Shown piece after piece: positions 9,384-43,371 of a stretch of 64,000 bases of DNA. The stretch is from Deltaproteobacteria bacterium (lineage in GTDB: Bacteria > Desulfobacterota > Desulfarculia > Adiutricales > Adiutricaceae). A program made the translations under genes and the position numbers. The notes beneath the pieces were generated by a model. The model was not told where the DNA came from and made no database searches. It saw only the letters and a list, made by a program, of their open reading frames with translations. The stretch lies in the NCBI GenBank assembly GCA_031276865.1, contig JAISMF010000077.1:18350-82349 (forward strand), read 5' to 3'. The stretch's first letter is position 1. Every line of letters starts with the position of its first letter.

Positions 9384-11147
9384 ATGGGTCACTTAACTCC
9401 GGTGGTAACCACGATTGAAGAAAACTGCTGCAACTGCCAGCGCTGCATCTCCGCCTGCCCCGTCAAGTTCGCGAACGACGCCTCCTCCGGAAACACGGTG
9501 AAGGTCGTCCATGACCTCTGCATAGGCTGCGGAGCCTGCCTGGAAGCCTGCCAGCACGCGGCCAGGGTGGGAGTGGACGATTTTCCGGCTTTCTTGAAAG
9601 ACCTCCACAGCGGAGTGCCGATGATAGCCATCGTGGCTCCGGCCGTGGCCGCCACCTTCCCCGGCCTCTATCTGAATTTCAACGGCTGGCTCTTAAGCCT
9701 GGGCGTGAAGGCCGTCTTCGACGTGAGTTTCGGAGCCGAGCTCACGGTTAAAAGCTACGTGGAGCAGATAAAGGTTCTCCGCCCCAGGACGGTCCTGGCC
9801 CAACCGTGTCCGGCCATCGTGACCTTCTGCGAGATCTACCAGCCCCAGCTTTTAAAACTCCTAGCCAAGTCCGACAGCCCCATGCTCCACTCCATGAAGA
9901 TGATCAGGGCCTTCCTGCCGGAGTACAACAACTGCAAGATAGCCGTCATGAGCCCCTGCTACGCCAAACGCCGGGAGTTCGACGAGACGGGCTACGGGGA
10001 CTACAACGTCACCTACATCAGTTTGAAAAAACACATAACCGAAAACAACATAGATTTAAACGACTTCGAGCCGGTCATGTTTCCCGAGCCCCTGGCGGAA
10101 AGGGCGGTGCTCTTCTCCATGCCGGGCGGACTTATGAAGACCGTGGAGCGCTACGTTCCGGACATCTCGGACGACACTAGGAAAATCGAGGGGGTGAACA
10201 ACATCTACCCCTATCTGGAAACCCTGTGGAAGTCCTACGAGGAGGAGAAGACCCCGCTTTTAATCGACGCCTTGAACTGCGAATGCGGCTGCAACGGCGG
10301 AACGGGGGTTCCGGAACGGGAAGATAGAAGCATGGACGAACTCGACTACCTCGTAAAGGAGCGTAGCAGGAGCCTTAAAGAGTATTACAAGGAGAAGACC
10401 AAATCCAGGACCATCTTCAAACGCAAAAACGCGGGTGAGGTGGTAAACGACTTGGTGGCCCGTTACTGGAAGGCCGGACTCTACACCAGGGGCTACACCG
10501 ATCACTCCAGAAACTTCAAACCCACCACCCTCACAAACGAGGATCGAGACAGGATAGCCAAACTCATCGGGAAGGACTCGGAGGATAAATTCTTCAACTG
10601 CCCCAGCTGCGGCTACAACTCCTGCGCCAAGATGATCATGGCCATCCACTTCGGCTGCAACACCGAGGAGAACTGCCACCACTACCTCATCGATCGCACT
10701 GAATCCGGCCGCACGCATTTAAGAAACATCATAAACATCGGCACCTCTATATCGGACTCCGTATCGGCCGCCGAATCCACAATCAACGCCATGAGCGATG
10801 GCATGGACAACATCAAGTCGCTTTCCTCCAAGATAGGGGACGTGCTTAAAAGCATCGAGGATATCTCCTTTCAGACCAACATTTTGGCCCTGAACGCCGC
10901 GGTGGAGGCCGCCCGGGCGGGCGAGGCCGGCGCCGGCTTCGCCGTGGTGGCCGACGAGGTGAGAAACCTGGCCGGCCGCAGCGCCTCCGCCGTAAACGAG
11001 TCCCGACGCATGATCGAAAAGACCCAGGCCAGCGTCCTGGACGGGGTGGAGAGCACCCAGAGCGTCAAAGACACCTTCATGGGCCTGAAAACCACGGCGC
11101 TGAGCATAACCGAAACCGTGAACGAAATTGAAAAAGAACTGGAGTAG
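9384..11147 (+). CDS. [FeFe]-hydrogenase-like sensor fused to a methyl-accepting (MCP) signalling domain
   Basis: 2x[4Fe-4S] ferredoxin ([27 protein letters not shown]), H-cluster-like segments ([41 protein letters not shown]), extra Cys cluster ([14 protein letters not shown]), MCP hairpin ([42 protein letters not shown]). Confidence 0.88.
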
Positions 11148-11568: not shown

Positions 11569-14289
11569 ATGAAATTAAGCTGGGATCAGATATACGACAA
11601 CGCTTCTTCTTTTTCCAACCGCTGGGAAAACGGACAAAAAGAAAAATCACAGTCACAATTATTTGTTTCAGATTTATTAAAAGTATTTGGAGTCGATATT
11701 AAGTCCGACATTCAAGAAAAAGACGGCGGTTTTGAATTTCCAGTAAAAATATCCGAACATAATGCTGGGTTAATTGATTTTTTTTGGAAAAAAAATATTG
11801 CGATAGAAATGAAATCTAAAGGTAAAAATTTAACTGAAGCCTTTAAACAATTACAAAATTACATGCGTCATCTTCCAGAAGATGAAATTCCCGATCTGTT
11901 TCTCGTATCAGACTTTGAAAACATGATGCTGTTTCAGCGTTCAATAGGAAAAATACGCAAGTTTAAAACAACTAATCTTCGTAATAATGTCAATTATTTC
12001 GCTAATATCGCAGGCTATGAACAGGGATTTTATAGGGAAGATCTAGAAGAAGTCAATGTAAAAGCCGCTGAAATGATGGCTCATTTGCATGATAATCTTG
12101 AAAGCCACGGATATAAGGGACACGATCTCGAAGTTTATTTAGTGCGACTATTATTTTGTTTTTTTGCTGAACATACTGAAATATTTTATAAAGATAGTTT
12201 TTATCGTTATTTAAAAAATTCGAAACAAGATGGTTCTGACTTAGCCGCACGGTTAGGAGAACTTTTTCAGTATTTTAATTTATCAATAGATGAGCGCGAA
12301 AATCAAACATTATGGCCAGATGATATAAAACATTTTAGATATATTAACGGAAATCTATTTAAAGAAAAAATTCAACTTTTTAAACTATCCAAAGACATGT
12401 ATAATTTATTGTTAAGATGTGCGGAATTTGACTGGAGTAAAATAAGTCCCGCCATATTCGGCGCTATGTTTCAAGGCGTAATGGATAAAGAAAAACGACG
12501 TGAACTTGGGGCCCATTATACTTCTGAAGAAAACATTCTTAAACTGATAAATTCTCTTTTTATGAATGATTTATGGAAAGAATACGAGTTAATTAAAAAC
12601 GATAAAAGAGAACTTGAAAAATTTATTAACATAATCGGTCAAATGATATTCCTTGATCCAGCCTGCGGATGCGGCAATTTTCTTATCGTAACTTATCGCG
12701 AACTTAGACGATTAGAGTTGCAAGCAGTAAAACTTAAGTATGCTCAAGGCCATCTTCCTTTTCTTAACACCACGATTTCTTTAAATGTAAATCTAGACCA
12801 ATTTTACGGCATTGAATGCGAAGATTTCGCATGCCAGATAGCCCAAGTAGGCATGTGGCTGATGGATCATCAGATGAATTTAGAAGCGGCGAAAGAGTTG
12901 GGTGGATATCACTATAACCTGCCCCTTAAAAACAGCGCTTCCATAATAAACGCAAACGCTCTTAAGCTTAACTGGGAAAATATACTACCTGCCAAAGATT
13001 TTACTTATATTTTCGGAAATCCTCCGTTTGCAGGATCAAAAATGCTGACGAATATTCAACGCGAGGATATGGCCCTTGTATTTAACGACCATGTAAAAAA
13101 TTACGGAATTCTTGATTATGTGACCGCATGGTATGATAAGGCTTCAAAATATATAGAAAAAAAGACCACTAAAGTCGCTTTTGTCTCGACAAACTCTATA
13201 ACTCAGGGAGAACAGGTGACAGCTCTTTGGAAACCTCTCATTGAACGATACGGCGTTCATATTGATTTCGCTTATAGAACTTTCAAGTGGACTAACGAAG
13301 CGAAAGGAAATGCTGGAGTTTACTGTGTAATCATTGGTTTTTCCACGGCAAAATCAAAAGGAAATAAAATTATATATGATAATGACAAAAAAATCATAGC
13401 CAATAATATTAATCCATATTTATTGGACGCTCCGGATATTTTTATTGAAAAGCGCAGAGTTCCTCTTTGCGCTGTACCTGAAATTGGTATAGGAAACAAA
13501 CCAATTGATGGCGGATATTATCTATTTACCGAAGAGGAAAAAAATAGATTTGTAAAAACAGAACCAAAATCTAATAAATGGTTTAAACGATGGTACGGAG
13601 CTGAGGAATTTCTAAACAACAGACCGCGATGGTGTTTATGGCTGGGTGAATGTCCTCCGGAGGAACTCAGCAAAATGCCGGAAGCTAAAAAACGAATCGC
13701 CGCTGTTAGAGAATTTAGACTGGCCAGCAAAAGCGAACCGACACAAAAGCTAGCCAGCACTCCTAGACTTTTTCACGTAATGAATATGCCAAGAAAACCA
13801 TATTTAGTCATTCCTAAAGTTACAACGGATAGAAGAGATTATCTTCCTATAGACTTTATGCTGCAAGAAGATCTTGCAAGCGATCTATTATTTATTATTC
13901 AAGGCGCTAATTTTTATCATTTTGGAGTTCTTTCTTCAAAAATACATATGTTATGGGTAACAGCCGTGTGCGGAAGGTTGGGGAATAATTTACGTTATTC
14001 TAAAGACATTGCTTATAACAATTTTCCTTGGCCAGTTGTTTCTGATAATCAGAGAGACGATATAGTAAAAGCCGCAGAAAATATCATTAATGTGCGTAAA
14101 TTATACAAAAATAGTTCTCTCGCTTCACTTTATGATCGGGATACAATGCCGGACGATCTTTGGAACGCTCACCAACAACTTGATCGAACATTGATGAGAG
14201 CTTATCGCTTTGACATAAAAAATTTTACAGATGCTGAAATTACAGGCAGATTAATTAATATGTATGTAAAAATGATATTTAACAAGTAA
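11569..14289 (+). CDS. Type IIL (MmeI-like) single-polypeptide restriction endonuclease/N6-adenine methyltransferase
   Basis: N-terminal PD-(D/E)XK-like GLIDFFWKKNIAIEMKSKGKNL, SAM motif LDPACGCGNFLIVTYRELRRLE, catalytic FGNPPFAGSKM, and a C-terminal target-recognition-like region. Confidence 0.85.
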   Translation: MKLSWDQIYDNASSFSNRWENGQKEKSQSQLFVSDLLKVFGVDIKSDIQEKDGGFEFPVKISEHNAGLIDFFWKKNIAIEMKSKGKNLTEAFKQLQNYMRHLPEDEIPDLFLVSDFENMMLFQRSIGKIRKFKTTNLRNNVNYFANIAGYEQGFYREDLEEVNVKAAEMMAHLHDNLESHGYKGHDLEVYLVRLLFCFFAEHTEIFYKDSFYRYLKNSKQDGSDLAARLGELFQYFNLSIDERENQTLWPDDIKHFRYINGNLFKEKIQLFKLSKDMYNLLLRCAEFDWSKISPAIFGAMFQGVMDKEKRRELGAHYTSEENILKLINSLFMNDLWKEYELIKNDKRELEKFINIIGQMIFLDPACGCGNFLIVTYRELRRLELQAVKLKYAQGHLPFLNTTISLNVNLDQFYGIECEDFACQIAQVGMWLMDHQMNLEAAKELGGYHYNLPLKNSASIINANALKLNWENILPAKDFTYIFGNPPFAGSKMLTNIQREDMALVFNDHVKNYGILDYVTAWYDKASKYIEKKTTKVAFVSTNSITQGEQVTALWKPLIERYGVHIDFAYRTFKWTNEAKGNAGVYCVIIGFSTAKSKGNKIIYDNDKKIIANNINPYLLDAPDIFIEKRRVPLCAVPEIGIGNKPIDGGYYLFTEEEKNRFVKTEPKSNKWFKRWYGAEEFLNNRPRWCLWLGECPPEELSKMPEAKKRIAAVREFRLASKSEPTQKLASTPRLFHVMNMPRKPYLVIPKVTTDRRDYLPIDFMLQEDLASDLLFIIQGANFYHFGVLSSKIHMLWVTAVCGRLGNNLRYSKDIAYNNFPWPVVSDNQRDDIVKAAENIINVRKLYKNSSLASLYDRDTMPDDLWNAHQQLDRTLMRAYRFDIKNFTDAEITGRLINMYVKMIFNK

Positions 14290-17882: not shown

Positions 17883-19814
<1,932 letters not shown>

Positions 19815-20325: not shown

Positions 20326-22410
20326 TCACCCCCCGGAGCCGTTCCTCACCAAGGTCACCTGGATGGGCCTTAGGAGTTTGGAGTTGTGGAGGTAGCCCCG
20401 GTTCACCATCCTGGCCACCCTTCCGTCCTCGAGGCCGCCCGCCTCGCCCGGCTCGAAACCCATGGCCTCCTGGAAGTTGGGATCGAAATTGTCCCCGGGA
20501 TCGGCCTTTATCTCCCTTACGCCGTATTTGCCCAGGACGTCCAGAAAACCCTTCAAGGTCATGCCCACACCGTCGGCCAGGCCCTTCACGGCCCCGTCTT
20601 CGGGGTTCGCGTAGCTTAAGGCGAGGTTGAGGTTGTCTAACACCGGGATGAGGTTTCGGATGAGTTCCAAAGCGCCGCCTTCCTCCCGATCCTCCCGGAT
20701 CCTTTCGCCGTAAGGGGCGTCCGCCCCCCGGTAACGCCCCACGAGGGCGGCCGCGGCCGGATTGGCCGCGGCCGGGGGAGCCGCTTCCCGGGGGGGGGCT
20801 GGTCCGGCCTTCGCTTTTTTTAGGGGCTCGCCTTCCTCCCTTTCCCCGGCCTTCTCCATCCAGGCCAGGGCGGCCGGGCCCACCGGCTGGAGGACGCGGT
20901 CCTCCAAAGAGACCGTCAAGGTCTTGCCGGAGGAAAGCTCCCTGGCCTCGAGCTCGAAGAGGCCGTCCCCCTGGACCTGGTAGCTCACCTCCACCCGACT
21001 CTCGCCTCGCGGGGCGGGAGGCACGCCGGAGATCTTGTAGTTGCCTAGGAAGCGAAACTCGGACTCGGAGGAGGGGTCTCCCTGAACGAGTCTTAGGTAC
21101 ATCTCGCTTTGGTTGTCCGAGGCGGTGGTGTAGTAGGCCTTGCGCTCCGCCGGGTAGCCGTTGTTCCGCTCCAGAATCAAGCTGATCCGCCCGGCGCCGG
21201 TGTCTATGCCCACCGAGGCGGGAAGCGTCTCCAGAACCAGGGTTTGGAAGTTTCCGGCAAGGGCGTCCCCCGCGTGGATGGCCGCCCCCCGGGCGATTCG
21301 GGCCTGGGAGTCGAAAAGCGTCACCGGATCCCGGGTGAAGAGGCGGATCATGCCTCTTTTCAGGGCCGGAATCATGGAAGTCTTGCCGGCCATGAGGATC
21401 AGATCCAGATCCCCCGGCCCCGCGCCGGTCCCCTCCAAAACGCCGTAGGCCAAGGAGAGGATGCGCCGAATCACGTCTCCGGCGAGCTCCTCGAAATCCC
21501 GGCGGCTAAGGGTCCTTTTAAAGCGCCAACCCTTTAAGCGGCCGCTTAAAAGATCGGAAAGGACGATCTGCGCGTCCAAAGAGGCGCTTAAAAGGGACTT
21601 GGCGCTGGCCGCGGCGTCCCGGAAGCGCACGAGCTCCCGATCCCTTTTGAGCTCCACCCCGGTTTCGTTTAGGAACTCCCTTTTCAAATACCCGGCGAGC
21701 CGGCGGTCGATGTCTTCTCCGGCGGAAAAGGCCGAACCCATCACCCGCTGGGTTTCAATGGCCTCGTCGCGCATCTCCACCAGGGCGGCCTGGGCGAAGC
21801 CGCCGCCCGCGTCCAGGACCAAAACCCGCCGCGGCCGGGCGAAAAAGTCCCTGTTCTCCCGCAAGTACGATAGGCAGAGGGCGCCGTGGTCGCTTATCAA
21901 GCGGAAGTTTTTAAAGCGGGAGGAAAGGGCCAGCCGGGCCGCGGCCCTCTGGTGGAAGTCGAAGGATCCGGGGACGCTGAGAACCGCCAGCTCCGCCGGA
22001 AGGCCGAGGGCCTTCTCGGCGCGCCTTTTCACGTGATCCAAAATGACCGCGAGGACATCCTGGGCGCTTAAAGCCTCCCCGAAGACCTCCACGCCGGCGA
22101 AGCCGCCCCCGTCCGGAACTATCCGGTAGGAGCGGTATCCCGCCTCCCTTTTGGCCTCCTCGGAGGAGTGCTCACGGCCTAAAAGCCGCTTCACGCAGTC
22201 AACCGAGCCGGCGGGGTTTTCGTAGGACTCCCTTAGGGGGTTGAGCCCCACCGCCGGACCCTCCGGATAAAAGGAGACGGAACTCGAAATCTCGAAGGCC
22301 CCGCCCCCGAAATTCACCAGCCGAGGCTCCCGGCCGTCCATAAAGGCCGCCCGGGAACCGCAGGTTCCGAGGTCGACGCCGACGGCGCTCTGAATCTGTT
22401 CTGCGGCCAT
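20326..22410 (-). CDS. Divergent Hsp70-like ATPase fused to a C-terminal GrpE-like domain
   Basis: N-terminus VGVDLGTCGSRAAFMDG plus Hsp70 substrate-binding beta region (YYTTASDNQSEMYLRLVQGD...GVPPAPRGESRVEVSYQVQGDG). Last ~115 aa (LIRNLIPVLDNLNLALSYANPEDGAVKGLADGVGMTLKGFLDVL...NFDPNFQEAMGFEP...VNRGYLHNSKLLRPIQVTLVRN) match the neighbouring GrpE. Confidence 0.93.
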   Translation of the reverse strand: MAAEQIQSAVGVDLGTCGSRAAFMDGREPRLVNFGGGAFEISSSVSFYPEGPAVGLNPLRESYENPAGSVDCVKRLLGREHSSEEAKREAGYRSYRIVPDGGGFAGVEVFGEALSAQDVLAVILDHVKRRAEKALGLPAELAVLSVPGSFDFHQRAAARLALSSRFKNFRLISDHGALCLSYLRENRDFFARPRRVLVLDAGGGFAQAALVEMRDEAIETQRVMGSAFSAGEDIDRRLAGYLKREFLNETGVELKRDRELVRFRDAAASAKSLLSASLDAQIVLSDLLSGRLKGWRFKRTLSRRDFEELAGDVIRRILSLAYGVLEGTGAGPGDLDLILMAGKTSMIPALKRGMIRLFTRDPVTLFDSQARIARGAAIHAGDALAGNFQTLVLETLPASVGIDTGAGRISLILERNNGYPAERKAYYTTASDNQSEMYLRLVQGDPSSESEFRFLGNYKISGVPPAPRGESRVEVSYQVQGDGLFELEARELSSGKTLTVSLEDRVLQPVGPAALAWMEKAGEREEGEPLKKAKAGPAPPREAAPPAAANPAAAALVGRYRGADAPYGERIREDREEGGALELIRNLIPVLDNLNLALSYANPEDGAVKGLADGVGMTLKGFLDVLGKYGVREIKADPGDNFDPNFQEAMGFEPGEAGGLEDGRVARMVNRGYLHNSKLLRPIQVTLVRNGSGG

Positions 22411-22480
22411 GAAAGCCTCGGGTGCCTGGGGCGGGGATTTTTACGAGACTCCGGATGAAAGGCCCGGAGGGCCGGGTTTT

Positions 22481-22506
22481 CCGGCGGAGCCTTAGGGCTC
22501 CGCCGG
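22481..22506. promoter_or_regulatory. Hairpin between grpE and the Hsp70-GrpE fusion gene
   Basis: CCGGCGGAGCC-TTAG-GGCTCCGCCGG, 11-bp perfect stem. Confidence 0.4.
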
Positions 22507-22608
22507 AGACGGCTATAAAAGGAGGATGAGGGGAAAGCCGCCGGAAAAGAGGAAAGATGGCCGAAAAAGCTCACGATCCGCAAGCCGACGGTCCCTTGGC
22601 GCCCGAAC

Positions 22609-23307
22609 TCAGCCGCCGTTTTTCACCAGCCGCACCATAACCGGCCGGAGCAGCCGGTCGTGGAGGGAGTAGCCGGGTTTCACGACGCTTTTAACCGTTC
22701 CGTCGGGGAGCTCGGGATCCTCCTGGGACTCCAGGGCCTCGTGGAAGTTGGGATCGAAGGGGTCCCCCCTTTGGCAGCTTAGCTCCTTGAAACCCAGAGG
22801 AGACAGTCTTTCCAGGCAGTCCTTGACGGTCATCTGGACCCCGAGGGCCAAATTCTTCGCTCCGGCGTCCTCCGGGTTTATATAGGAGAGGGCCAGATTG
22901 AGGTTGTCCAAAACCGGGATGATCTCGAGGAGCACCCTTTCCACGCCGTATTTCCGGATCTCCTCGGTCTGCTTCTCCGCCCGCCTCCTCACGTTCTCCT
23001 GATCGGCCAAGGAGCGCAGGTACTTGTCCTTCCACATGGCCGCCTCGAGGGCGGGGTCCGCCTCCTCCGGCTCGGGAGGCGTTCCCGAGCCCTCAAGATC
23101 CTCCGCGCCGGAAAGGTCGCCGTTTTCCGGCCCATCCGCGAAATCGCCTCCCTCATGGGGATCCGCCCCGGGGGCATCCGCCCGCGGATCCTCGGCGCGC
23201 GAGTCGCCTTCCGGCTCCCCGTAGGCCGCGTCCGCGGGCGAGGCGCCGTTAGAGTCGCCGTCCGTAAAAGCGGCGGCGAAATTCACCGTCTTTATTCCGT
23301 CTTCCAT
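22609..23307 (-). CDS. grpE: Nucleotide exchange factor GrpE
   Basis: WKDKYLRSLADQENVRRRAEKQTEEIRKYG...LLEIIPVLDNLNLAL...DPNFHEALE...VKPGYSLHDRLLRPVMVRL. Confidence 0.95.
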   Translation of the reverse strand: MEDGIKTVNFAAAFTDGDSNGASPADAAYGEPEGDSRAEDPRADAPGADPHEGGDFADGPENGDLSGAEDLEGSGTPPEPEEADPALEAAMWKDKYLRSLADQENVRRRAEKQTEEIRKYGVERVLLEIIPVLDNLNLALSYINPEDAGAKNLALGVQMTVKDCLERLSPLGFKELSCQRGDPFDPNFHEALESQEDPELPDGTVKSVVKPGYSLHDRLLRPVMVRLVKNGG

Positions 23308-23322
23308 AATCTTTCCACAAAT

Positions 23323-24381
23323 CTATTTGTTGAAGGCCCCGGATAGGACCCTGGCGGCGTAGTCCACCACCGGCACGATCTCCTGGTAATTGAGGCGCCT
23401 GGGTCCCAGGACCCCCAGGGCGCCGCCCATCTCGCCTCCGGTGAAAGGCGAGGCCACCAGGGCCAGGCCGTCGGGGTCCTCCCCCGAGGGGCTGATGACC
23501 ACCCTCACCCGGCCGCCGCCGGTTATCTCGTTTAAAAGCTCCACCAGGCGCCTTTTGTTCTCGAAGGCGCGGAAAAGGGCCCGCATGGCCTCGGCGTCCT
23601 TGAAATCGGGGTGCTCCAGGAGTCTGAAACGCCCCTCCTCGTCCATGTAGATCTCCCTCTCATCCTCCCCATCCGCCGCCGCCCGGGCGGTTTCGGCGGT
23701 TAAAAGGAGGACCCGCCGGTAGATCTTCTCGAAATCGTCCCGGGCGCGGCCCATTTCGTTTATGAGCTCCTCCCGGATAGCCGTCAAAAAGAAGGGCCGC
23801 TCCCTCTCCTCGAAGTAGAGGTTCACCTGGTTGAGCTCCTCTTGGGAGAAGTCCGCCGCGGTCCGCAAAAGCCTATTTTGGATGATGCCGTTTCGGGAAA
23901 CCAGGACCGCCAGCACCCGGCGCTCCCCCATGCGCACGAAATAGAGCTTGCCGAGGCCGGCCGCCGCGAGCTCGGGGGCCATGAGCACCCCCATCTGCGA
24001 GGTGAGGCTGGAGATCATCCTGGTGCAGAAGCTCCACAGCGAGCCGGCGGTGAAATCCGCCTGGGCGATCTCTTTTTTAATCTTCTCCCTGACTCCGGCC
24101 GGAAGTTTTCCGGCCTCCAGGATGCTTCCGGCGTAGAGCTTGAAGCCCTCCTCGGTGGGGGTGCGCCCCGCCGAGCTGTGCGAGCGCCTTAAAAGCCCCT
24201 GGGCCTCGAGCTCGTGGAGGACCTTTCGAATGGAGGCGGGGGAGAGATCGAGCCCGTAGCGCTCGGCCAGCGCCCCGGAGGATACCGGCTCCCCGGTGCG
24301 GATGAAGTCCAGCACCACGGCTTCGAAGATCTTTTTCTGCCTCTCCGTTTCCGGCATGATCCCCCCCCGGCTTCGTTCCAA
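23323..24381 (-). CDS. hrcA: Heat-inducible transcription repressor HrcA
   Basis: ETERQKKIFEAVVLDFIRTGEPVSSGALAERYGLDLSPASIRKVLHELEAQGLLRRSHSSAGRTPTEEGFKLY; first in a hrcA-grpE-dnaK cluster. ATG near 24357 may be the real start. Confidence 0.95.
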   Translation of the reverse strand: MERSRGGIMPETERQKKIFEAVVLDFIRTGEPVSSGALAERYGLDLSPASIRKVLHELEAQGLLRRSHSSAGRTPTEEGFKLYAGSILEAGKLPAGVREKIKKEIAQADFTAGSLWSFCTRMISSLTSQMGVLMAPELAAAGLGKLYFVRMGERRVLAVLVSRNGIIQNRLLRTAADFSQEELNQVNLYFEERERPFFLTAIREELINEMGRARDDFEKIYRRVLLLTAETARAAADGEDEREIYMDEEGRFRLLEHPDFKDAEAMRALFRAFENKRRLVELLNEITGGGRVRVVISPSGEDPDGLALVASPFTGGEMGGALGVLGPRRLNYQEIVPVVDYAARVLSGAFNK

Positions 24382-33515: not shown

Positions 33516-33742
33516 CGCCCCTAATTAAATAGATTTAGTTAAATTAATACTTAAAAACATAAATTAGATATTAAACATTCCCGCGGAACCGCTTCGCCCC
33601 CGGGGCTTAAGCGGGGGAAGCCCCCTTTGGCTCCCTTTGACTTGCCTTTAGCGGGAGCTTATTATATTGTTTTCGCGAGAGTCACGCCTCCCGATTCCGG
33701 CCTGGATTCGTTTTTCCGGCTCCCGTTTCTCCATTTCTCCAC

Positions 33743-33784
33743 GGCTCACCCTCCCCGCCCGTCTACGGGCGGGGAGGGTGAGCC
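33743..33784 (+). promoter_or_regulatory. Perfect 19-bp hairpin immediately upstream of pfaD
   Basis: GGCTCACCCTCCCCGCCCG-TCTA-CGGGCGGGGAGGGTGAGCC, 14 nt before ATG 33799. Confidence 0.85.
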
Positions 33785-33798
33785 GGAAGCGGCCAACA

Positions 33799-35355
33799 AT
33801 GTCCAACTCTCTTTTCCTCGACAATCTGCTAACCGCCCTCTACGACCCCCTGGAACCCATCTACCTGAAATCGGGCGGCGAGATGGCCGTCCACGGCGAC
33901 TGCGGGATAACCGCCATGATCCCCCCCATCGCCCCGGGAAACTTCGGCTCCAAGGCCTTCCGCAAGGAATTCAACCTCCGCTTCGCCTACATGGCCGGAG
34001 CCATGGTGGGGGGCATAAGCTCGGTCACCATGGTGGAGGCCCTGGCCCAGGCGGATCTCCTCGGCGTCTTCGGGGCCTCGGGGCTCGCGCCGGAGGCGGT
34101 GGAGGACGCGGTCGCGCGGCTAGGAAAGGACTTACCGGGTAAAAGCTTCGGCTCGTGCCTGATCCACACCCCCCAGGACCCCGAGCTGGAGCGGAAGATT
34201 GTGGACATCTACCTCAAACACAAGGTGTCCCTGGTGGAGGCCTCGGCCTTCCTCCAAATTTCCCCCGCGCTCGTCTTGTACCGTCTAAGCGGGTTAAGGG
34301 AGCTTCCCGACGGCTACATCGTGGCCCCCAACAGGATCGTCGCCAAATGCTCCCGGGTGGAGCTGGCCCGCCGCTTCTTCAGCCCGCCCCCCGAAAAGAT
34401 CGTGAAAAGCCTTCTGGAGAATAAACTCATAACCCCCTCCGAGGCCGAGCTGTCCCGCTACATACCCATGGCCCAGGATCTAACGGCCGAGGCCGACTCC
34501 GGCGGACACACCGACTTCCGGCCGGCCATCACCCTGTGGCCCAGCATGCTCCACCTGGCCGAGGAGTACACCCGCAAATTCGACTACCTCCAGCCGCTGC
34601 GGGTGGGGGCCGCGGGCGGACTGGGCACCCCGGCCGCCCTCCAGGTGGCCCAGGACATGGGCTGCTCCTATTTCGTGACCGGTTCCATCAACCAGAGCTG
34701 CGTGGAATCGGGACTCTCCCCCCGGGGAAAGGAGCTCCTGGCCAAGGCCGGACAGACCGACGTGTCCGCCGCCCCGGCGGCGGACATGTTCGAGCTGGGG
34801 GCCAAAGTGCAGGTGCTTAAATACGGCACCCTCTTCGCGCCCCGGGCCCAGAAGCTCGCGGAACTCTACCGCTCCTGCGCCGCGCCGGAGGACATACCGG
34901 CGGACGAGGTCCAGGCCTTGGAGGAGAAGATATTTAAAAAACCCCTCTCCGAGGTCTGGCGCGAGACCGAGGAGTTCTTCCAAAAGAGGGATCCGGCGCA
35001 ACTTAAAAAGGCTGAAAATCCCAAATACAAGCTCGCTTTGATGTTCCGCTGGTACCTGGGCCAGGCCTCCCGCTGGGCCATCGCCGGAAACGAGGAGCGC
35101 CGCGCCGACTGGGCCATTTTCACGGGCCCCTCCATGGGCGCCTTCAACGAGTGGGCGCAGGGAAGCCATTACGAGGATCCCTCCCGACGCCGGGTGGTCG
35201 ATCTGGCCTTCAACCTCCTCTACGGCCTGGCCGTCCTGAAACGCCTGACCCTGGCCCGGGATCTGGGACTTCTTCCGGACGATCAGATGTCGACCTTGAA
35301 ACCCCTACCTCCGGAGCAGCTGGCGGACTACATTTCCATCAATCCCAACCTCTGA
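33799..35355 (+). CDS. pfaD: PfaD-like enoyl reductase (2-nitropropane dioxygenase/FMN family)
   Basis: FAYMAGAMVGGISSVTMVEALAQADLLGVFGASGLAPEAVE, RVGAAGGLGTPAALQVAQDMGCSYFVTGSINQSCVESG, MAPAADMFELGAKVQVLKYGTLFAPRAQKLAELY-type motifs; next to pfaA-like gene. Confidence 0.92.
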   Translation: MSNSLFLDNLLTALYDPLEPIYLKSGGEMAVHGDCGITAMIPPIAPGNFGSKAFRKEFNLRFAYMAGAMVGGISSVTMVEALAQADLLGVFGASGLAPEAVEDAVARLGKDLPGKSFGSCLIHTPQDPELERKIVDIYLKHKVSLVEASAFLQISPALVLYRLSGLRELPDGYIVAPNRIVAKCSRVELARRFFSPPPEKIVKSLLENKLITPSEAELSRYIPMAQDLTAEADSGGHTDFRPAITLWPSMLHLAEEYTRKFDYLQPLRVGAAGGLGTPAALQVAQDMGCSYFVTGSINQSCVESGLSPRGKELLAKAGQTDVSAAPAADMFELGAKVQVLKYGTLFAPRAQKLAELYRSCAAPEDIPADEVQALEEKIFKKPLSEVWRETEEFFQKRDPAQLKKAENPKYKLALMFRWYLGQASRWAIAGNEERRADWAIFTGPSMGAFNEWAQGSHYEDPSRRRVVDLAFNLLYGLAVLKRLTLARDLGLLPDDQMSTLKPLPPEQLADYISINPNL

Positions 35356-35924
35356 GGCCTCCCGTCGTCCCCGGGCCCCCCGCCGGATCCCCGGGGGAAC
35401 TCCGCCTTGGCGCCGGGTTCTTCAAGAGTTAAAACCCTTTGAAACTTCCGCTTCTGAAAAAATTGGCAAAGGCTTGGGGGGGGGACGCGAAACAGGCGAA
35501 AAAACGCGCGATTATGAAATTACGGGAAACATGAAACGGCAATCGAATTCGACCGCGTGAAACCCTAAATTTTTCCGCCGCCGTTTCGCCTCGTCAAGTT
35601 TCGTCTCCCCTCTAAAAACAAAGGCGTCAGCAAGATATTTTTCGGGGGGCGTTTACCGCGACAACTTTTTTGAGCGGCCGAAAACGCCCACACCCGTTTC
35701 AATCATCTAATTCGCGTCCGAAACGCTCTTCTCGACGCTTTGTTTCCGCGCTTATCCGCAAGCGTCGATTTAAAGGAATCATGGGTTTTTCTTGTGAATT
35801 CAACTTCAATAATTTTTTATTCATTTTTTTCACACGCCAAATCAATTTCAAAATTTCTTATGGATGAGTATGTTTCATCTCCGTCATCGACATGTGTTTT
35901 GCGAATATATCGGTGAATTACGCG

Positions 35925-36013
35925 TCACCCCGGCGGACGAAAGTTAAAGCGTTAGAATGAAGAGGTTCCCCCCTTTATCCGGATCTTTCCAATATTTAAC
36001 CGCCGGAGAGATA
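35925..36013. mobile_element. MITE-like family A element
   Basis: TCACCCCGGCGGACGAAAGTTAAAG...TTTCCAATATTTAACCGCCGGAGAGAT; interior resembles 17203-17299. Confidence 0.7.
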
Positions 36014-37077
36014 ATGATGGAGGTTTTCCAAAAAAACACCCGAAGCGGAGGATAATCCGGAGAGGGCGTTCGCGAAAATTTCCTTTAACAGGGGTCATCG
36101 CCTTTTAGGACGCCGCTTTGCGATTTTTCCCCTTTTTTGAGATTAGTTTTTTTCATCCTCCACGTTGGAATACGCCTGATGGAAATGTTTTAAGCGCCCG
36201 CCCTCCGCTTCCGTTCAACCGAGGATTTTAGTTCGCGAATAGGGGGCGACCCCGCCATTGTTCCCGAGACCTCTTTTCCCAATCTCGACTCGCGGGGAAA
36301 GTCCCCCTGGGAATTTATTTCCGCCGCGGAAACTTTAACCCATAGCGCGGCGGCGATAAAAACCGAATTCATAAAAAACGCTCCCTCGCCAAACCTTTTC
36401 GTTTCCCAGTCGTCTCCGTAGTCGCTTCCCGCGCCTCCGCCCGCGGCCCTCCAACTTGTCCAGGCCGTCCCGGGCGAGCTTTTCACCCCCCTTTCCCCCC
36501 GTTAATTTAAAACCGTTTTCCGCCTCCCCCCGGCCGTCCCCGCCCTCCGCCGGCGGCTCCGGCGGCTCCGGCCGTTTCGCGGGGGCGAAGGGCGAGCTCC
36601 GAAAAAGGGCGCCCCAATTCGGGGCTCGACTGCGAACGCGTCCGGTAAAGGGCCCCGGTCCTTTTTCCCCGCTTATCTTTTTCCCCCGCCCGCCTCTTTT
36701 CCGATCAAACGATCGTGCGGAAAACCGCTTTCCGCGGGCTTAAGCCTCCCCCGGCTTCGAGACGGAGCGGAAATCAGGCCCGAAGCTTCCGGAAAGAGGC
36801 CGGAAACCAATCCCCAAGAGCCCGAAGAGGGCGCCGGGCGCCTTGAATCGGGAGGCGTAAAAATGCTAAAATGTTCCGTTTCTTAGCAGGCTGTTCTCCG
36901 AGAGCCACCTTTTTCCCCCGGACCCCGTCCCCGGGCCCCTTTCGCCTTCTTTCCCGCCGTTTTCCGGCTCTCGCGGGTGGAACGGCTTTTTCTTTGACAA
37001 GCCCTCTTTTTCATCCGGTCGCGCTCTTCGCCGCCCCCTCGAGTTCGGGAGGGCGAAGGGCGCGCCCTCCAGGTTTT

Positions 37078-40000
37078 ATGAACGCTCCCGCTTCCTCCAA
37101 ACCCGGCCCCGCCTCCGGTTACGACGGCTCCGCCGCTATTATCGGCCTGGGAGCCCATTTCCCCGGCCGCCCCGGCGTTTCGGGCTACTGGTCGCTTGTG
37201 AAAAACGGCCTGGACGCCGTGACGGACATCCCCAAGGATCGTTTCCTAATCGAGGACTACTACGACCCGGACCCCAAGGCCCGGGACAAGATCTACGTGA
37301 AAAGGGGGGCCTTCCTCAGCCCCCTCGCCTTCGAGCCGTTGAAGTACGGCATCCCCCCCCGGGAGATGGAGTCCGTGGACTCCACCCAGCTTTTAAGCCT
37401 CCTCGTCGCGGACGCGGCCCTCACGGACGCCGGCTATCCGGCGGACCGCGCGAACCACGGCCGCACGGCCGTCATCCTCGGCGTGACCGGGGCCTTGAAG
37501 ATGGTGGTGAGCTTGGGATCGAGGCTCGCGCATCCCCAGATCCGCCGGGCCATGGAGGCCTGCGGGGTGCGGCCCCAGGTGATACAAAGGGTCTTGGAGC
37601 GCTTCTCCCAGTCCTTCGAGCCCTGGACCGAGAGCTCCTTTCCGGGGCTCTTGGGAAACGTGGCCGCGGGCCGGGTGGCCTCGCGGCTGAACCTCCAGGG
37701 CGAGAACATGGCCGTGGACGCCGCCTGCGCGAGCTCGCTCGCGGCCGTGTCCCAGGCCCTTCTGGCTTTGAGGGCGAAAAAGGCCGATCTGGTGGTGACC
37801 GGCGGCGCCGACACCTTCAACGACCCCTTCATGTTCTCCTGCTTCTCCAAGACCCCGGCCCTCTCCCGCACGGGGGAGGCCCGGGTCTTCGATCGGGGGG
37901 GCGACGGCACCATGCTGGGCGAGGGCGTGGGGATAGTGATTTTAAAGCGCCTGGAGGACGCCCGCCGGGACGGCGACAGGATCTACGCGGTGATAAGGGC
38001 CGCGGGCTCGGCCTCGGACGGCCGGGGCGCCTCGATCTTCGCCCCCAGCGCCAAGGGCCAGACCCTGGCCTTGGAGAGGGCCTTTCGGGAGGCCGGCTGG
38101 GAGGCGCGCGAGGTGGAGCTTTTGGAGGCCCACGGCACGGGCACGGCCGTGGGCGATCAAGTGGAGCTTTCGGCGCTCCAGGCCTTCTTCGGCCGGGACT
38201 TGCCGGCGGCGGACGCCGGGGAAAAGGACCCGGCCGCCCCCCCGCTTCCCTGGTGCGCCTTGGGCTCGGTTAAAAGCCAGATCGGCCACGCCAAGGCGGC
38301 GGCCGGCGCGGCCGGCCTCATCAAGGCCGCGCTCGCCCTCCACCACAAGGTGCTGCCCCCCACCATCCACGTGAAAAAGCCCCTGGAGCCCTTTTCCCGG
38401 GAGGGCTGCCCCTTTTATCTGAACACCCGGGCCCGGCCCTGGTTCGCGTCGCCCAAACATCCCCGCCGGGCCGGGGTTTCGGCCTTCGGTTTCGGCGGCT
38501 CCAACTTCCACGTCCTTTTAGAGGAGGCCGGGGACGTGAAAATGCCCTTCGACGCCGGGGTGCACCTTTTGCCGCTCGCGGGGAAAAGCCTTTCCGCCGT
38601 GGCCCTCCAGATAAAAGATCTAAGCGAGTCCGCCGGACTCGCTCTAAGCCCCCTGGAGCTCAAAGACCCCCTTTTAAGGCCCCTGGCCTTCTCCCAGGCC
38701 CTGGACTCCCGGATCCGCCCCCTCATCTCGTCGTTTAACCCGGAGGCGGAGGAAAAGGTCTTTCTGGCCTTCCCCGGGGAGCGGGCCGGAAGCTTTCTGG
38801 AGACCCTCCCCGAGGTCCTCGATGCCCGCCGCCGGGGCGGCGCCGGCTTCAAACTCCCGGACGGGGTCTTTTTCGGCCGCGAAAAATCCCCCCAGGGCCT
38901 GATCTTCTTCGATCCGGGCGGACTCCCCCTCGGATCCGGCCAGGGGCTCGATTTGGCCCTGGACTTCCCCCACTACCAGATGATCCTGGATCTCTTCTCC
39001 CAGGGCCGGGAGGGATCGCCCATCGGGCTCCTCCTCCACCCCCCGGAGACGCTTCCGGAGTCTTCGCTCGCGGCCCTGCGAGAGGAGCTGAGGGATCCCG
39101 CCAGCTCCTATTTTCTGGGACCGGCCCTCGCGGCGGCCCTCCACGAGCTCTACTCCTTTTTCGGCTTGGCTTGCGGCGAATGCGCGGGAAGCGGACCCGG
39201 CTTCGTCTCCGCTTTGATCGTGGGCGGCTTTCTGCCTTTAAAGGAGGCCGTTAAAGGCCTGGGCGCGATCAAGCGCCCGGCGGAACTTAAAACGCTCAGA
39301 AAAACCCTGGAGGGACTCTCCCTCACGCTTCCGGAAAACCCCGGACTCCCTAAACTTTTGGGGCCGGACGCCGAGCCCGTCTTAAGCGTCGCCCGCGCCC
39401 GGGAGATCCTTTTAAGCGAACTCGAAGAGGTCCTCCGGGCCCCCGGAAAAGGGGCGGAAATAAACGGCCGCGCCGTAAAGGACCCGGACACCCCGAAGAG
39501 CCCGGACGACTCCCCCGTGAAGGCGGAAAATTCGACTTTAAAAGAGAGCGCCCCCTTCGCGGGCGAAGACGGCGAGGGGGGGGAGGATCCGTCCCTTCCG
39601 CCCGCGCTCCGGTTTTTTTTACGGCGCTTTCCGGAAAAGCTCCTCCTCTTGGCCGGCGGCCCGGAGTCTCCGGAGGCCGGATTCGGAGAGGATTTTCCAA
39701 AATCCGCGGGCGAGATCGACGTGGACCTTTTGGGAAGGGTCTTAAGAAACCCGACGGGCGCCTTGGATCTGGCCAAAAACCTGGCCCTTTTGGCCTCCCG
39801 GGGGGTGAACGTCCTATTTAAAAACTGGTCCTTCGGAAGCTTCCCGACCCCCAAACCCCGGGGGCACCACGTCATGCTCGGCGGCGCGAACCTCTTCAAA
39901 CCCGCCTTCGCCGCGGGCGAATCCGACCCGCGGGGCGGGGAGCTAAGCGATTTTCCCTTGGACCTTCCGGAAGAAGGGGAGGGGGAAACCCAGGGGCGCG

Positions 40001-43000
40001 TCCTCCGCTTGGAAAACGGCCTAGCCGCCCTCCAACGAAACCAGGCCGAAACCCTTTCCATCCTCCGCTCCCTGGAAAGGCGGATCCCCCCATCCGCCGG
40101 GGCGCCTTCCCCGGCGGCCCTCTTCGGGGCGCCTTCCCCGGCGCCCCTCCGCCAGGCGCCCCCCCCCGAAGAAGGGGACCCGACTTTACCGGCCGCCTCC
40201 GGGAGCCTCCTCAAAGTCGTTCCCAACCCCGGTTTTCAAGATTTCGGGAGCTCGTTTAGGGAAAAAGACCCCGCCCCTCCGGAAGAGCCCCGCCGGGCGG
40301 ATTCACCCGGGGCGGATTCCGCCCCTCCGCGGTCGGCGGCGGCGGAGAGCTTCTACGCCTTGATCGCGAAAGAGACGGGCTATCCCCGGGAGGCCCTGCG
40401 GGCGGACATGGATCTGGAAAACGATCTGGGCCTCGACTCCATTAAAAAGGTGGAGCTCCTCTCCGAGGCGGCCCGGGTCTTTCCCGGCTTCCAAAGCGAC
40501 CCCGGGGCCCTCACCCTGGGCGCCCTCGCGGCCCTCTGCGGGGTCGCCCCGAGTCCGGAAAGTCCCGCCCCCCCCTCCAGGCGGCCGGCCTCCGCTCCCC
40601 GCGGCTTCGGGGAAGGCCCGCCGGAGCCGCCCTCCGGCCGGACCGCGCCGGCGGAGCTCCCCGCGGCGCGGGAGCGGGTTTTACAAATCATCGCCGCCGA
40701 GACCGGATACCCGGCCGAGACCTTGACCGGCTCCCTCTCCCTGGAGGGGGATCTGGGCTTGGACTCCATTAAAAAGGTGGAGATCCTCTCCCTGATCGGG
40801 GAGTTTCTTCCCGCGGGGGATCCGGGGGTCTTAGGCGCCGCCGAAACCATAGACGACATCCTGAAAACCCTGCCCCCGGCGGAGGCCCCCGGCCCCGTAA
40901 GCGCGGCCGGAGGCCTTCCGGGCGGGGGGGATCCCCCGGATCGCCCGAAGGGATCCCTTCGGCCCTTAAGCCGGGTGGGCCCCCTGGGGACCCGCTCCAG
41001 CGCCCTCGACGTCCAATCGTCTCCGCGGGCGGGGGAGGAGGAGGAAGGCGAAAAAGAGGACCGCGCGCTCGAGGACCTCGAAAAGATGGTCCTGCGCCTG
41101 GTCTCCCGGGAGACGGGCTATCCGGAGGAATCCTTAAGTCCGGGGCTTGATTTGGAAAACGATCTGGGCCTCGACTCCATTAAAAAGGTGGAGCTTTTAA
41201 GCCTTTTAACCGAGGAGGCGGGAAAAAGAAGCGCCCTTAAGGAGGCGGGAACCGAGCTGCAGCGGGCCTTAAGCGCCTCCTCCACCCTGGGCGACTGGAT
41301 CGCCTCCCTCGCCCTCTTGAGCCGGAAGAGGCCCCGGGGCCTCCCCGCCCCGCCGGATCCCCTGCGCTCCCCCCTCCCCCTCGCGGCCTTCCTGGACGCC
41401 CCGAATCCCCGGGATCCAAAGATCCCGCGGAAGGACGCCCCTTTCGGGGAGGCTTCCGCGTTTCCGCCCCCGGGGCGGGAATCCGTTTCCGGCGGCCTCC
41501 CCTCCGATTGGGACGGCGAAAGCGGCTCCGCGGGATCCCCCCACGGGGAGGGCGTCCCGGAGGAGACCGGCGTGAAGGGATCCGCCCCGGCCCCCCGGGA
41601 GGGATCCGGCCGGGACGTTTTTCCCGGCGTGATCAATCCCGGATTCTCCGTGCGGGATCCGGACGGTTTAAACACGGGCTCCCTCCTCGGAGAAGGGGGC
41701 CCGCGGGACCCCTCCCCGCCCTTCGCCTTGATGGATCCGGACTACCGCCATGGCGAGGCGGCCCCCCTTTCCCGCGGGGGGGCTCCCCGCGCCCCCCGGG
41801 CGAAGCCCGGGGAGCGGGTCCCGAGAGGCGGAGAACGCCAGGCGGCGGTCTTCCGGGTGGAGTCCCAGCCCTTGAACCCCCTTTCCGGGGAGGCGGACCT
41901 TAAGGCCCACTCGCCGGTCATCCTGGTGGGGGGGAGCCCCCAGGCGGATTTTCTCGCCGGGGGGCTAAAGGAGAGGGGGCTCCTCTTGAAAAGGGTATCC
42001 TGGCGGGACGATTTTTCCTCCCTCTTTCAGAGCGGCTCTTTGGACGTGGAGGGGGAGAAGGCCCGCTCCCTGGTTTTAGTCTGGCCGGGATCGGATCGGG
42101 ATCCCTTCCTCGCCCGTCAGGCCTTGGCCATTTTAAAAGAGGCCGGACCGAGCTTGAGCTCGGTCGCGGGGGTGACCTCGCTGGGCGGAAACTTCTCCCG
42201 GCCCGGAAACGGGGAGGGGCCCCGATCCTCGGGCAACTACGCCTCCGCCGCCCTTTTGGGGCTCATCCGGACCATCGCCCTGGAGTGGCCGGAAATAAGG
42301 ACCCGGGTGATCGATCTGCCCTTGGCCGCGCACGAGATGCACCTTCCGGACATTCAAGAGCGCGTCGTGGAGCGCCTCTTTTCCGACGGCCCTCTGGAAA
42401 TCGGCATCCCCTCCTCCGAGCGGTCCCTCTCCCTGGCTCTGTCGCCGGTGGAGATCTCCGGCAGGTCGAATCCGGGCGGGCCTCCGGCCCTAAAACCCGG
42501 GGACACCTTGGTCGCGACCGGCGCCTTAAGGGGTTTGACGGCCCTGGTTTTAAAGGAGCTCGCGGCCCAGGAGCGTCCGGACATGGTCATCCTGGGCCTC
42601 GACCCCTTGGGGCCGCCCGAGCCCCCGTGGCTTTCCGAACTTAAAACCTTGAAGGAAATCAAGGCCAGGTTCCGCTCCATGTTCCAAGACGCCCTCGGCG
42701 CCGCCGAGCTCCACGAGCGGGCGGAGTTGGCCCTCAAGTCCCGGGCCTTGCGGGAGACTTTAACGGATCTGGAAAACCTGGGCTCCCGGGTGGAGTACCT
42801 CTCCGGCGACTTTTTAAACCCGGAGGTTCTGGACGGGGCCCTACGGTTCATCCGCCGGGAGCGCGGCCCCGTCAAGGGCTTGGTCCACGGCGCCGGCGCC
42901 TTGGACGGCGGCTGGATCGAAGACTTCCATCGCTTGGAATTCTCCCGGGTCTACGCCACCGGAGCCGAGACGGCCGCGCGGCTTTTAGAGGCCTTCCAAG

Positions 43001-43371
43001 ACGAGCCCCTCTCCCTCATCCTGTTTTTAAGCCCGGCCCCCGAGGCCCCGGGGGAGCTTCTTCCCGCCGGCTTCTCGGCCGCGGGCGAGGTCCTGCGCAA
43101 GATCGCCTGGGACGAGGCCGGAAACCGCCCGGAGGCCAAGGTCCTCTCCATTTCCTGGGCCCAAGGGGCCTACGCCCCCCAAAGCGCCCCGGGGCGGCGC
43201 GGGGGGGCCCCGAAGGCCGCCGCGAGTCCGGCCGCGGGACTGTTGCGGGACCTTTTGCGGCTCCCGGCGGACTCCCCCCAGGAGCTTTTGGTGCTGGGCG
43301 CCGGACGGGGGCGCCCCCGGACGGGGGCGCCCCGCTCCGGCGGCCCGCTCAACTTCGGGGGGGATTCATGA
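37078..43371 (+). CDS. pfaA: PfaA-like polyunsaturated fatty acid/polyketide synthase: KS, degenerate AT, 3xACP, KR-like
   Basis: KS VDAACASS, EAHGTGT, KSQIGHAKAAAG; three ACPs LGLDSIKKVE (about 40430, 40755, 41165); C-terminal KR-like VKGLVHGAGALDGGWIEDF. ORF opens at 36871; start near ATG 37078 is likelier. Confidence 0.9.
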   Translation: MNAPASSKPGPASGYDGSAAIIGLGAHFPGRPGVSGYWSLVKNGLDAVTDIPKDRFLIEDYYDPDPKARDKIYVKRGAFLSPLAFEPLKYGIPPREMESVDSTQLLSLLVADAALTDAGYPADRANHGRTAVILGVTGALKMVVSLGSRLAHPQIRRAMEACGVRPQVIQRVLERFSQSFEPWTESSFPGLLGNVAAGRVASRLNLQGENMAVDAACASSLAAVSQALLALRAKKADLVVTGGADTFNDPFMFSCFSKTPALSRTGEARVFDRGGDGTMLGEGVGIVILKRLEDARRDGDRIYAVIRAAGSASDGRGASIFAPSAKGQTLALERAFREAGWEAREVELLEAHGTGTAVGDQVELSALQAFFGRDLPAADAGEKDPAAPPLPWCALGSVKSQIGHAKAAAGAAGLIKAALALHHKVLPPTIHVKKPLEPFSREGCPFYLNTRARPWFASPKHPRRAGVSAFGFGGSNFHVLLEEAGDVKMPFDAGVHLLPLAGKSLSAVALQIKDLSESAGLALSPLELKDPLLRPLAFSQALDSRIRPLISSFNPEAEEKVFLAFPGERAGSFLETLPEVLDARRRGGAGFKLPDGVFFGREKSPQGLIFFDPGGLPLGSGQGLDLALDFPHYQMILDLFSQGREGSPIGLLLHPPETLPESSLAALREELRDPASSYFLGPALAAALHELYSFFGLACGECAGSGPGFVSALIVGGFLPLKEAVKGLGAIKRPAELKTLRKTLEGLSLTLPENPGLPKLLGPDAEPVLSVARAREILLSELEEVLRAPGKGAEINGRAVKDPDTPKSPDDSPVKAENSTLKESAPFAGEDGEGGEDPSLPPALRFFLRRFPEKLLLLAGGPESPEAGFGEDFPKSAGEIDVDLLGRVLRNPTGALDLAKNLALLASRGVNVLFKNWSFGSFPTPKPRGHHVMLGGANLFKPAFAAGESDPRGGELSDFPLDLPEEGEGETQGRVLRLENGLAALQRNQAETLSILRSLERRIPPSAGAPSPAALFGAPSPAPLRQAPPPEEGDPTLPAASGSLLKVVPNPGFQDFGSSFREKDPAPPEEPRRADSPGADSAPPRSAAAESFYALIAKETGYPREALRADMDLENDLGLDSIKKVELLSEAARVFPGFQSDPGALTLGALAALCGVAPSPESPAPPSRRPASAPRGFGEGPPEPPSGRTAPAELPAARERVLQIIAAETGYPAETLTGSLSLEGDLGLDSIKKVEILSLIGEFLPAGDPGVLGAAETIDDILKTLPPAEAPGPVSAAGGLPGGGDPPDRPKGSLRPLSRVGPLGTRSSALDVQSSPRAGEEEEGEKEDRALEDLEKMVLRLVSRETGYPEESLSPGLDLENDLGLDSIKKVELLSLLTEEAGKRSALKEAGTELQRALSASSTLGDWIASLALLSRKRPRGLPAPPDPLRSPLPLAAFLDAPNPRDPKIPRKDAPFGEASAFPPPGRESVSGGLPSDWDGESGSAGSPHGEGVPEETGVKGSAPAPREGSGRDVFPGVINPGFSVRDPDGLNTGSLLGEGGPRDPSPPFALMDPDYRHGEAAPLSRGGAPRAPRAKPGERVPRGGERQAAVFRVESQPLNPLSGEADLKAHSPVILVGGSPQADFLAGGLKERGLLLKRVSWRDDFSSLFQSGSLDVEGEKARSLVLVWPGSDRDPFLARQALAILKEAGPSLSSVAGVTSLGGNFSRPGNGEGPRSSGNYASAALLGLIRTIALEWPEIRTRVIDLPLAAHEMHLPDIQERVVERLFSDGPLEIGIPSSERSLSLALSPVEISGRSNPGGPPALKPGDTLVATGALRGLTALVLKELAAQERPDMVILGLDPLGPPEPPWLSELKTLKEIKARFRSMFQDALGAAELHERAELALKSRALRETLTDLENLGSRVEYLSGDFLNPEVLDGALRFIRRERGPVKGLVHGAGALDGGWIEDFHRLEFSRVYATGAETAARLLEAFQDEPLSLILFLSPAPEAPGELLPAGFSAAGEVLRKIAWDEAGNRPEAKVLSISWAQGAYAPQSAPGRRGGAPKAAASPAAGLLRDLLRLPADSPQELLVLGAGRGRPRTGAPRSGGPLNFGGDS

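Follow-up and report, generated by a model that had tools for sequence, protein, structure and literature searches.

The locus lies in a 64,000-nucleotide stretch of a contig from a Deltaproteobacteria bacterium (hereafter the window) and consists of a gene array of the order hrcA-grpE-[fusion]-dnaK, with all genes on the minus strand. The array comprises the gene of the heat-shock repressor HrcA (23323-24381; Pfam HrcA, E = 1.3e-38), a standalone, full-length grpE (22609-23307; Pfam GrpE, E = 1e-40), a gene encoding an Hsp70-GrpE fusion protein of 694 aa (20326-22410), and a canonical dnaK (17883-19814; NCBIfam PRK00290.1, 1036 bits). The fusion gene starts with ATG and its reading frame contains no internal stops. 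The initial annotation, which had not given the strand, described it as an Hsp70-like reading frame with a C-terminal GrpE domain between grpE and dnaK, a description with which the Pfam matches and the gene order agree. Searches of the genome of this organism yielded one canonical dnaK and one standalone grpE besides the fusion gene, and a peptide-pattern scan of the genome contigs returned one distant Hsp70 and no fusion. A perfect 12-bp inverted repeat with a 4-nt loop and without a T-run is located between grpE and the fusion gene (22480-22507, minus strand); it is not a conserved part of the locus, as the same gap measures only 43 bp in the sister species G029. No CIRCE element was found in the window, with up to 3 mismatches allowed.

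The plus strand of the window encodes several other proteins, including an AAA-ATPase_like protein (PF09820; 25995-27833) at approximately 1.6 kb from hrcA, a MmeI-type (type IIL) restriction-modification enzyme that is complete by domain content (11569-14289), and a putative hydrogen-sensing chemoreceptor, in which a [FeFe]-hydrogenase-like domain with ferredoxin motifs is fused to a methyl-accepting chemotaxis signalling domain (9384-11147). In addition, an acyltransferase-like reading frame is followed by two giant reading frames with ketoacyl synthase, carrier, KR, and FabA-like dehydratase domains (33667-51101), which resemble a polyunsaturated fatty acid synthase cluster.

Both halves of the fusion protein were recognized far above chance, as their Pfam scores are well over the respective cut-offs. 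The HSP70 profile (PF00012) matches residues 9-503 (E = 3.5e-78; 263.7 bits versus a cut-off of 20.6), and the GrpE profile (PF01025) matches residues 572-687 (E = 3.1e-23; 82.7 bits versus a cut-off of 25.8) with its positions 52-163 of 165. The C-terminal GrpE assignment was thereby confirmed, and the stretches of the fusion that had been aligned with the neighbouring GrpE proved genuine and correct. DnaK and HscA are the best NCBIfam Hsp70 models for the fusion, which misses both DnaK equivalog cut-offs (271 of 648 bits and 264 of 823 bits for PRK00290.1 and TIGR02350, respectively). An AlphaFold2 model, calculated from an input alignment of 18 rows, displayed pLDDT values of approximately 93 for the nucleotide-binding domain (NBD), 57-86 for the substrate-binding beta domain (beta-SBD), below 50 for the linker (residues ~505-575), and approximately 88 for the GrpE domain, and E. 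coli DnaK structures were the top matches of this model in Foldseek.

The NBD (residues 9-387; 21250-22386, minus strand) was aligned with the local DnaK, together with the other Hsp70-like copies described below (the fusions of G029 and G024 and a related protein of G025, four copies in all with that of the window), and E. coli residue numbers were assigned by motif. All four copies carry a Phe at the position of the catalytic Thr199 of E. coli DnaK (Phe205 in the window fusion, codon 21796-21798), and all four have lost Glu171, Asn170, and the GrpE-contacting Arg34; the Glu171 and Arg34 positions are occupied by Asp174 (21889-21891) and Phe39 (22294-22296) in the window copy. The two complete fusions, i.e., those of the window organism and G029, have further lost Arg345, Asp201, Asp366, Glu267, and the adenosine-motif glycine Gly342, which has become Lys. 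Of the catalytic set K70/E171/D194/T199, the window fusion thus retains K70 and D194 only. D8, T11, G196-198, and G341 are preserved in all four copies, the K70 and K270 positions are Lys or Arg, and D194 is retained in both complete fusions; with D8, T11, K70, D194, the GGG motif, K270, and G341 in place, the NBD may still bind ATP. Replacement of Thr199 by Ala is a standard route to minimal hydrolysis by DnaK (PMC10825016), and judged from its residues the Hsp70 half of the fusion appears to be ATP-dead. Such a loss of the catalytic site is not general to the divergent Hsp70s of the family, since the more distant Hsp70b paralogs have intact NEPTAAA and GGGTFD motifs in those that were read.

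The beta-SBD (residues 388-505; 20896-21249, minus strand) is 69% identical to that of the sister species and its substrate pocket is still hydrophobic (A429 kept, F426 replaced by Tyr or Phe, V436 by Met, and I438 by Leu). The change of V436 to Met would narrow the pocket for client proteins, which tempers the interpretation of the fusion as a client holder. As claimed initially, the alpha-helical lid of Hsp70 is missing: it is absent from the window fusion in the alignment and the AlphaFold2 model, absent from the G029 fusion, and reduced to a stub in the G024 and G025 copies. Its place is taken by a disordered, fast-evolving linker (residues 506-571; 20698-20895, minus strand; 26% identity and dN 0.92 over residues 506-575). 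The designation of this linker as Pro/Ala-rich holds for the window copy and not elsewhere, as the G029 linker differs from it (26% identity) and the G024 linker is a 14-aa Gly/Ala/Ser/Gln repeat.

The GrpE domain (residues 572-690; 20341-20697, minus strand) comprises the end of the stalk helix, the helices of the four-helix bundle, and the beta-wing, and the C-terminal 154 residues match the GrpE chains 3a6m, 1dkg, and 4ani by sequence. AlphaFold2 placed helices at residues 567-599 and 606-627 and the beta-wing at 631-688. The long GrpE stalk is mostly absent, the match covering the profile from position ~52 onward only and helix 567-599 representing the stalk end, and the disordered N-terminal tail of GrpE is missing as well. 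The GrpE stalk contacts the linker and SBD of DnaK (PMC10803776, PMC11685456) and is reported to be indispensable to refolding by the M. tuberculosis system (PMC10803776). The fused domain has retained the four-helix and beta-wing parts, which contact the NBD in the solved DnaK-GrpE and mortalin-GrpEL1 complexes. At the position of E. coli GrpE Arg183, motif comparison placed Lys in the window fusion and Met in G029, and this replacement may weaken binding to DnaK.

The fusion was also found in G029, a species of the same genus, within the same gene order (hrcA-grpE-fusion-dnaK) and with a length of 687 aa and 57% overall identity to the window protein, while the DnaK proteins of the two species are 96% identical (over the 399 aa of the G029 DnaK present on the contig). 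In G024, a member of another genus, hrcA and grpE are followed by a divergent Hsp70 frame that leaves contig C435 within a 14-aa repeat, GPAGAGGQAASGAS, and contig C412 opens in this same repeat and continues with a GrpE domain and dnaK. Over a length of 67 nt the ends of the two contigs coincide except for 1 mismatch, and their frames are compatible, so that the most economical reading is a single fusion gene split by the assembly at its repetitive linker, the exact join being unproved. The suspicion that an assembly or frameshift artefact had created the fusion can draw on the fragmented state of every genome concerned; against it stand the independent G029 ortholog, divergent in sequence and in the same place, and the third copy in G024 with its matching contig ends, which together refute the artefact and leave it a negligible probability. 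Neither of the two conditions under which the initial annotation would have been refuted, a C-terminus without a GrpE profile match and a fusion created by frameshift or misassembly, was borne out.

In G025, which belongs to the genus of G024, the corresponding slot is occupied by the gene of an Hsp70-like protein of 601 aa, in which a GrpE domain is not recognizable. Downstream of the repeat region a GrpE-like remnant scored 6.9 bits (E = 0.008), which is a hint only; between the Hsp70-like gene and dnaK, this genome contains a reading frame of RRGxPDRR-type repeats (L049, 4731-5373, minus strand), with the weak GrpE-like stretch downstream. In those other genomes of the family whose contigs allow the grpE locus to be followed as far as dnaK, dnaK comes after grpE with no inserted gene, and the insert is missing from G022, G023, G026, and the sampled members of other genera. 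The distribution searches covered the class (64 genomes) and the phylum (123 genomes), where fragmented genomes could hide copies. With all matches of the GrpE search listed, fusions were detected in 3 of the 64 genomes of the class (those of the window organism, G029, and G024, all members of one family), and among the 123 phylum genomes the only above-cut-off GrpE in a frame of at least 600 aa was that of the window. Other genera have long GrpE frames of 480-800 aa, and Pfam scans of representatives detected no Hsp70 fusion among them. A 585-aa GrpE frame of G104 is not an Hsp70 fusion either; it overlaps with hrcA, which is read in a different frame. Away from hrcA, a second Hsp70/GrpE pair, consisting of a long GrpE-domain protein beside a divergent Hsp70 (L035-L045), is encoded in several further genera of the family; these Hsp70s are approximately 38% identical to DnaK, and many of the GrpE-domain proteins have a low-complexity acidic tail. 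Searches of the open literature retrieved no description of a DnaK-GrpE or Hsp70-GrpE fusion. All parts of the protein belong to known families; joined in this way, and with a degenerate ATPase site, they are undescribed within the reach of these searches.

Comparison of the window and G029 copies revealed that selection differs by domain. Identity amounts to 49% in NBD lobe I, 61% in lobe II, 69% in the beta-SBD, 26% in the linker, and 72% in the fused GrpE domain, with dN values of 0.92 for the linker, 0.23 for the beta-SBD, and 0.18 for fused GrpE. The corresponding region of standalone GrpE is 69% identical with a dN of 0.27, indicating that the fused domain is held as tightly as a working GrpE. 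Within this domain, the dimer-forming four-helix region and the beta-wing are 73% and 70% identical, respectively. For the whole gene, dN is 0.37 and dS approximately 1.0, the latter being near saturation and taken only as a sign that enough time has elapsed, and the frame has remained intact. These data bear on the possibility that the gene is a decaying duplicate without present function, as could be suspected from its fast change relative to DnaK (57% versus 96% identity), its absence from G022, G023, G026, and the sampled other genera, and the G025 copy without a recognizable GrpE half. Conservation of the domains with a binding role while the linker drifts argues against decay, as do the open frame in two species at this dS and the preserved hydrophobic pocket and GrpE wing, and this explanation is considered unlikely.

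With respect to its origin, the four inserted Hsp70 copies form one clade in the Hsp70 tree (support 100/99) with long branches; the clade is supported independently of branch length by the T199F replacement, the lost E171, and the lost lid that the copies have in common. Diagnostic residues, which amount to 11 columns only, were uninformative as to where in the DnaK tree of the family the Hsp70 half originated. In the GrpE-domain tree, the fused domains group with standalone GrpE proteins, namely those of genera g1, g5, g6, and g10 (14 rows, support 96/90). Topology tests gave a p-AU of 0.415 for a single fusion event, 0.51 for a branch just outside the GrpE proteins of these four genera, and 0.26 for a grouping of the fused domain with the GrpE of the window organism and G029, a grouping that the tree itself does not show. 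None of these three arrangements is rejected, and the data agree with a single fusion as well as with two independent ones. A local duplication and fusion of the flanking grpE, as suggested initially, is in line with the position of the fused domains among the flanking GrpE proteins of related genera, but the event is older than species and genus, since the same insert occurs in another genus. For that reason, and because of the tree grouping, a recent fusion of the species' own grpE is not favoured. The duplication probably took in dnaK as well as grpE, and the order hrcA-grpE-[dnaK'-grpE']-dnaK is the one that would be expected from a tandem grpE-dnaK duplication followed by fusion of the inner genes.

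The initial annotation offered two functional options, a self-exchanging chaperone and a scaffold or regulator that brings GrpE to DnaK. In the former, the tethered GrpE would drive nucleotide exchange in the Hsp70 half to which it is attached, and the presence of both domains in one chain, the flexible linker of ~65 residues, and an exchange-loop hairpin of the same length as in DnaK could be adduced in support. The fused NBD has, however, lost Thr199, Glu171, the adenosine-motif Gly342, Arg345, and the GrpE-contact Arg34, which leaves little reason for nucleotide exchange in cis, and a lid that could close over a client is missing; without the catalytic residues and the lid, a self-exchanging, ATP-driven chaperone is very unlikely. 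The latter option is the better reading, and in its preferred form the fusion would be a pseudo-Hsp70 holdase combined with a nucleotide-exchange module that acts in trans on DnaK, to which a probability of roughly 0.45 is assigned. The constraint under which the beta-SBD and the fused GrpE have evolved, the intact ortholog that G029 has at the corresponding position, the lost catalytic residues, the hydrophobic pocket, and the retained four-helix and beta-wing parts count in its favour, and the relatives that lack or have lost the insert, the mostly missing stalk, the changed Arg183, and the Met at V436 count against it. Its main rival is a decoy or heterodimer regulator of GrpE, in which the fused GrpE would pair with ordinary GrpE and the pseudo-Hsp70 would occupy GrpE, J-proteins, or clients, thereby restraining or tuning the DnaK cycle without promoting exchange. 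The conserved dimer-forming region, the lost catalytic residues, and the gene array shared with grpE and dnaK fit such a role, and since GrpE protomers are known to differ in their tasks within the 1:2 complex of Hsp70 and GrpE, a specialized partner is plausible (PMC11685456). Titration of J-proteins is made less likely by the altered Asn170 of the J-domain site in all four copies, and the beta-wing is conserved too rather than the dimer region alone, so that the decoy is regarded as possible but doubtful.

For the preferred holdase with a trans-acting exchange module, the following course of events is proposed. An old dnaK duplicate would have lost its lid and catalytic residues, and with them the ATP-driven clamp cycle, and a flexible linker would have joined it to a GrpE copy reduced to the dimerizing four-helix bundle and the DnaK-opening beta-wing. 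Clients that are unfolded or aggregated might be held by the lidless beta-SBD in a weak, reversible manner. The GrpE module, either in a homodimer or together with ordinary GrpE in a heterodimer, would meanwhile dock in trans on ADP-state DnaK and open the NBD of this DnaK. Exchange, and hence the release or hand-over of clients, would then be favoured where the fusion already holds a client. DnaK and GrpE are treated as separate partners, and the known exchange factor of bacterial DnaK is GrpE. If the proposal is true, exchange factors can evolve from Hsp70 in bacteria, the question of why GrpE has to be a separate, dimeric protein can be addressed in a natural tethered system, and direct tests of client holding by exchange factors become possible; the three fused copies and the copy without a recognizable GrpE half would represent stages of its arising or loss.

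Among known systems, the fusion resembles DnaK in the fold of its NBD and beta-SBD, with approximately 31% identity over ~500 residues and DnaK structures as top Foldseek matches, and differs from it by the missing lid, the absence of Thr199 and Glu171, and the attached linker and GrpE domain. With GrpE it shares the four-helix and beta-wing domain, the local GrpE proteins being nearest in the tree, but the fused copy resides at the C-terminus of an Hsp70 and lacks the disordered N-terminal tail as well as the greater part of the stalk. The PilZ-DnaK proteins CsdK1 and CsdK2 of Myxococcus are likewise bacterial Hsp70 paralogs with an extra domain, which is a PilZ domain in their case, and they have another function (PMC10313047). 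The GrpE2-Hsp70b pairs of the same family resemble the fusion in that an additional Hsp70 has an additional GrpE-domain protein in its vicinity, but they are separate genes with intact ATPase motifs in those read, and form a separate clade. A functional parallel may be provided by the eukaryotic Hsp110/Grp170 proteins. Hsp110 proteins are related to Hsp70 and serve both as holdases and as nucleotide exchange factors (PMC12987570), and the same pairing of client holding with exchange on another Hsp70 is proposed for the fusion from its domain content. Hsp110 achieves exchange through its own NBD in an NBD-NBD contact, whereas the fusion carries a grafted GrpE, and the kinship claimed is restricted to the Hsp70 fold. 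It is tentatively suggested, with less than even confidence, that the fusion is a functional analogue of Hsp110, i.e., a catalytically dead, lidless Hsp70 holdase with its own GrpE that would transfer clients to and from DnaK, and that was born of a tandem grpE-dnaK duplication and fusion of the inner copies.
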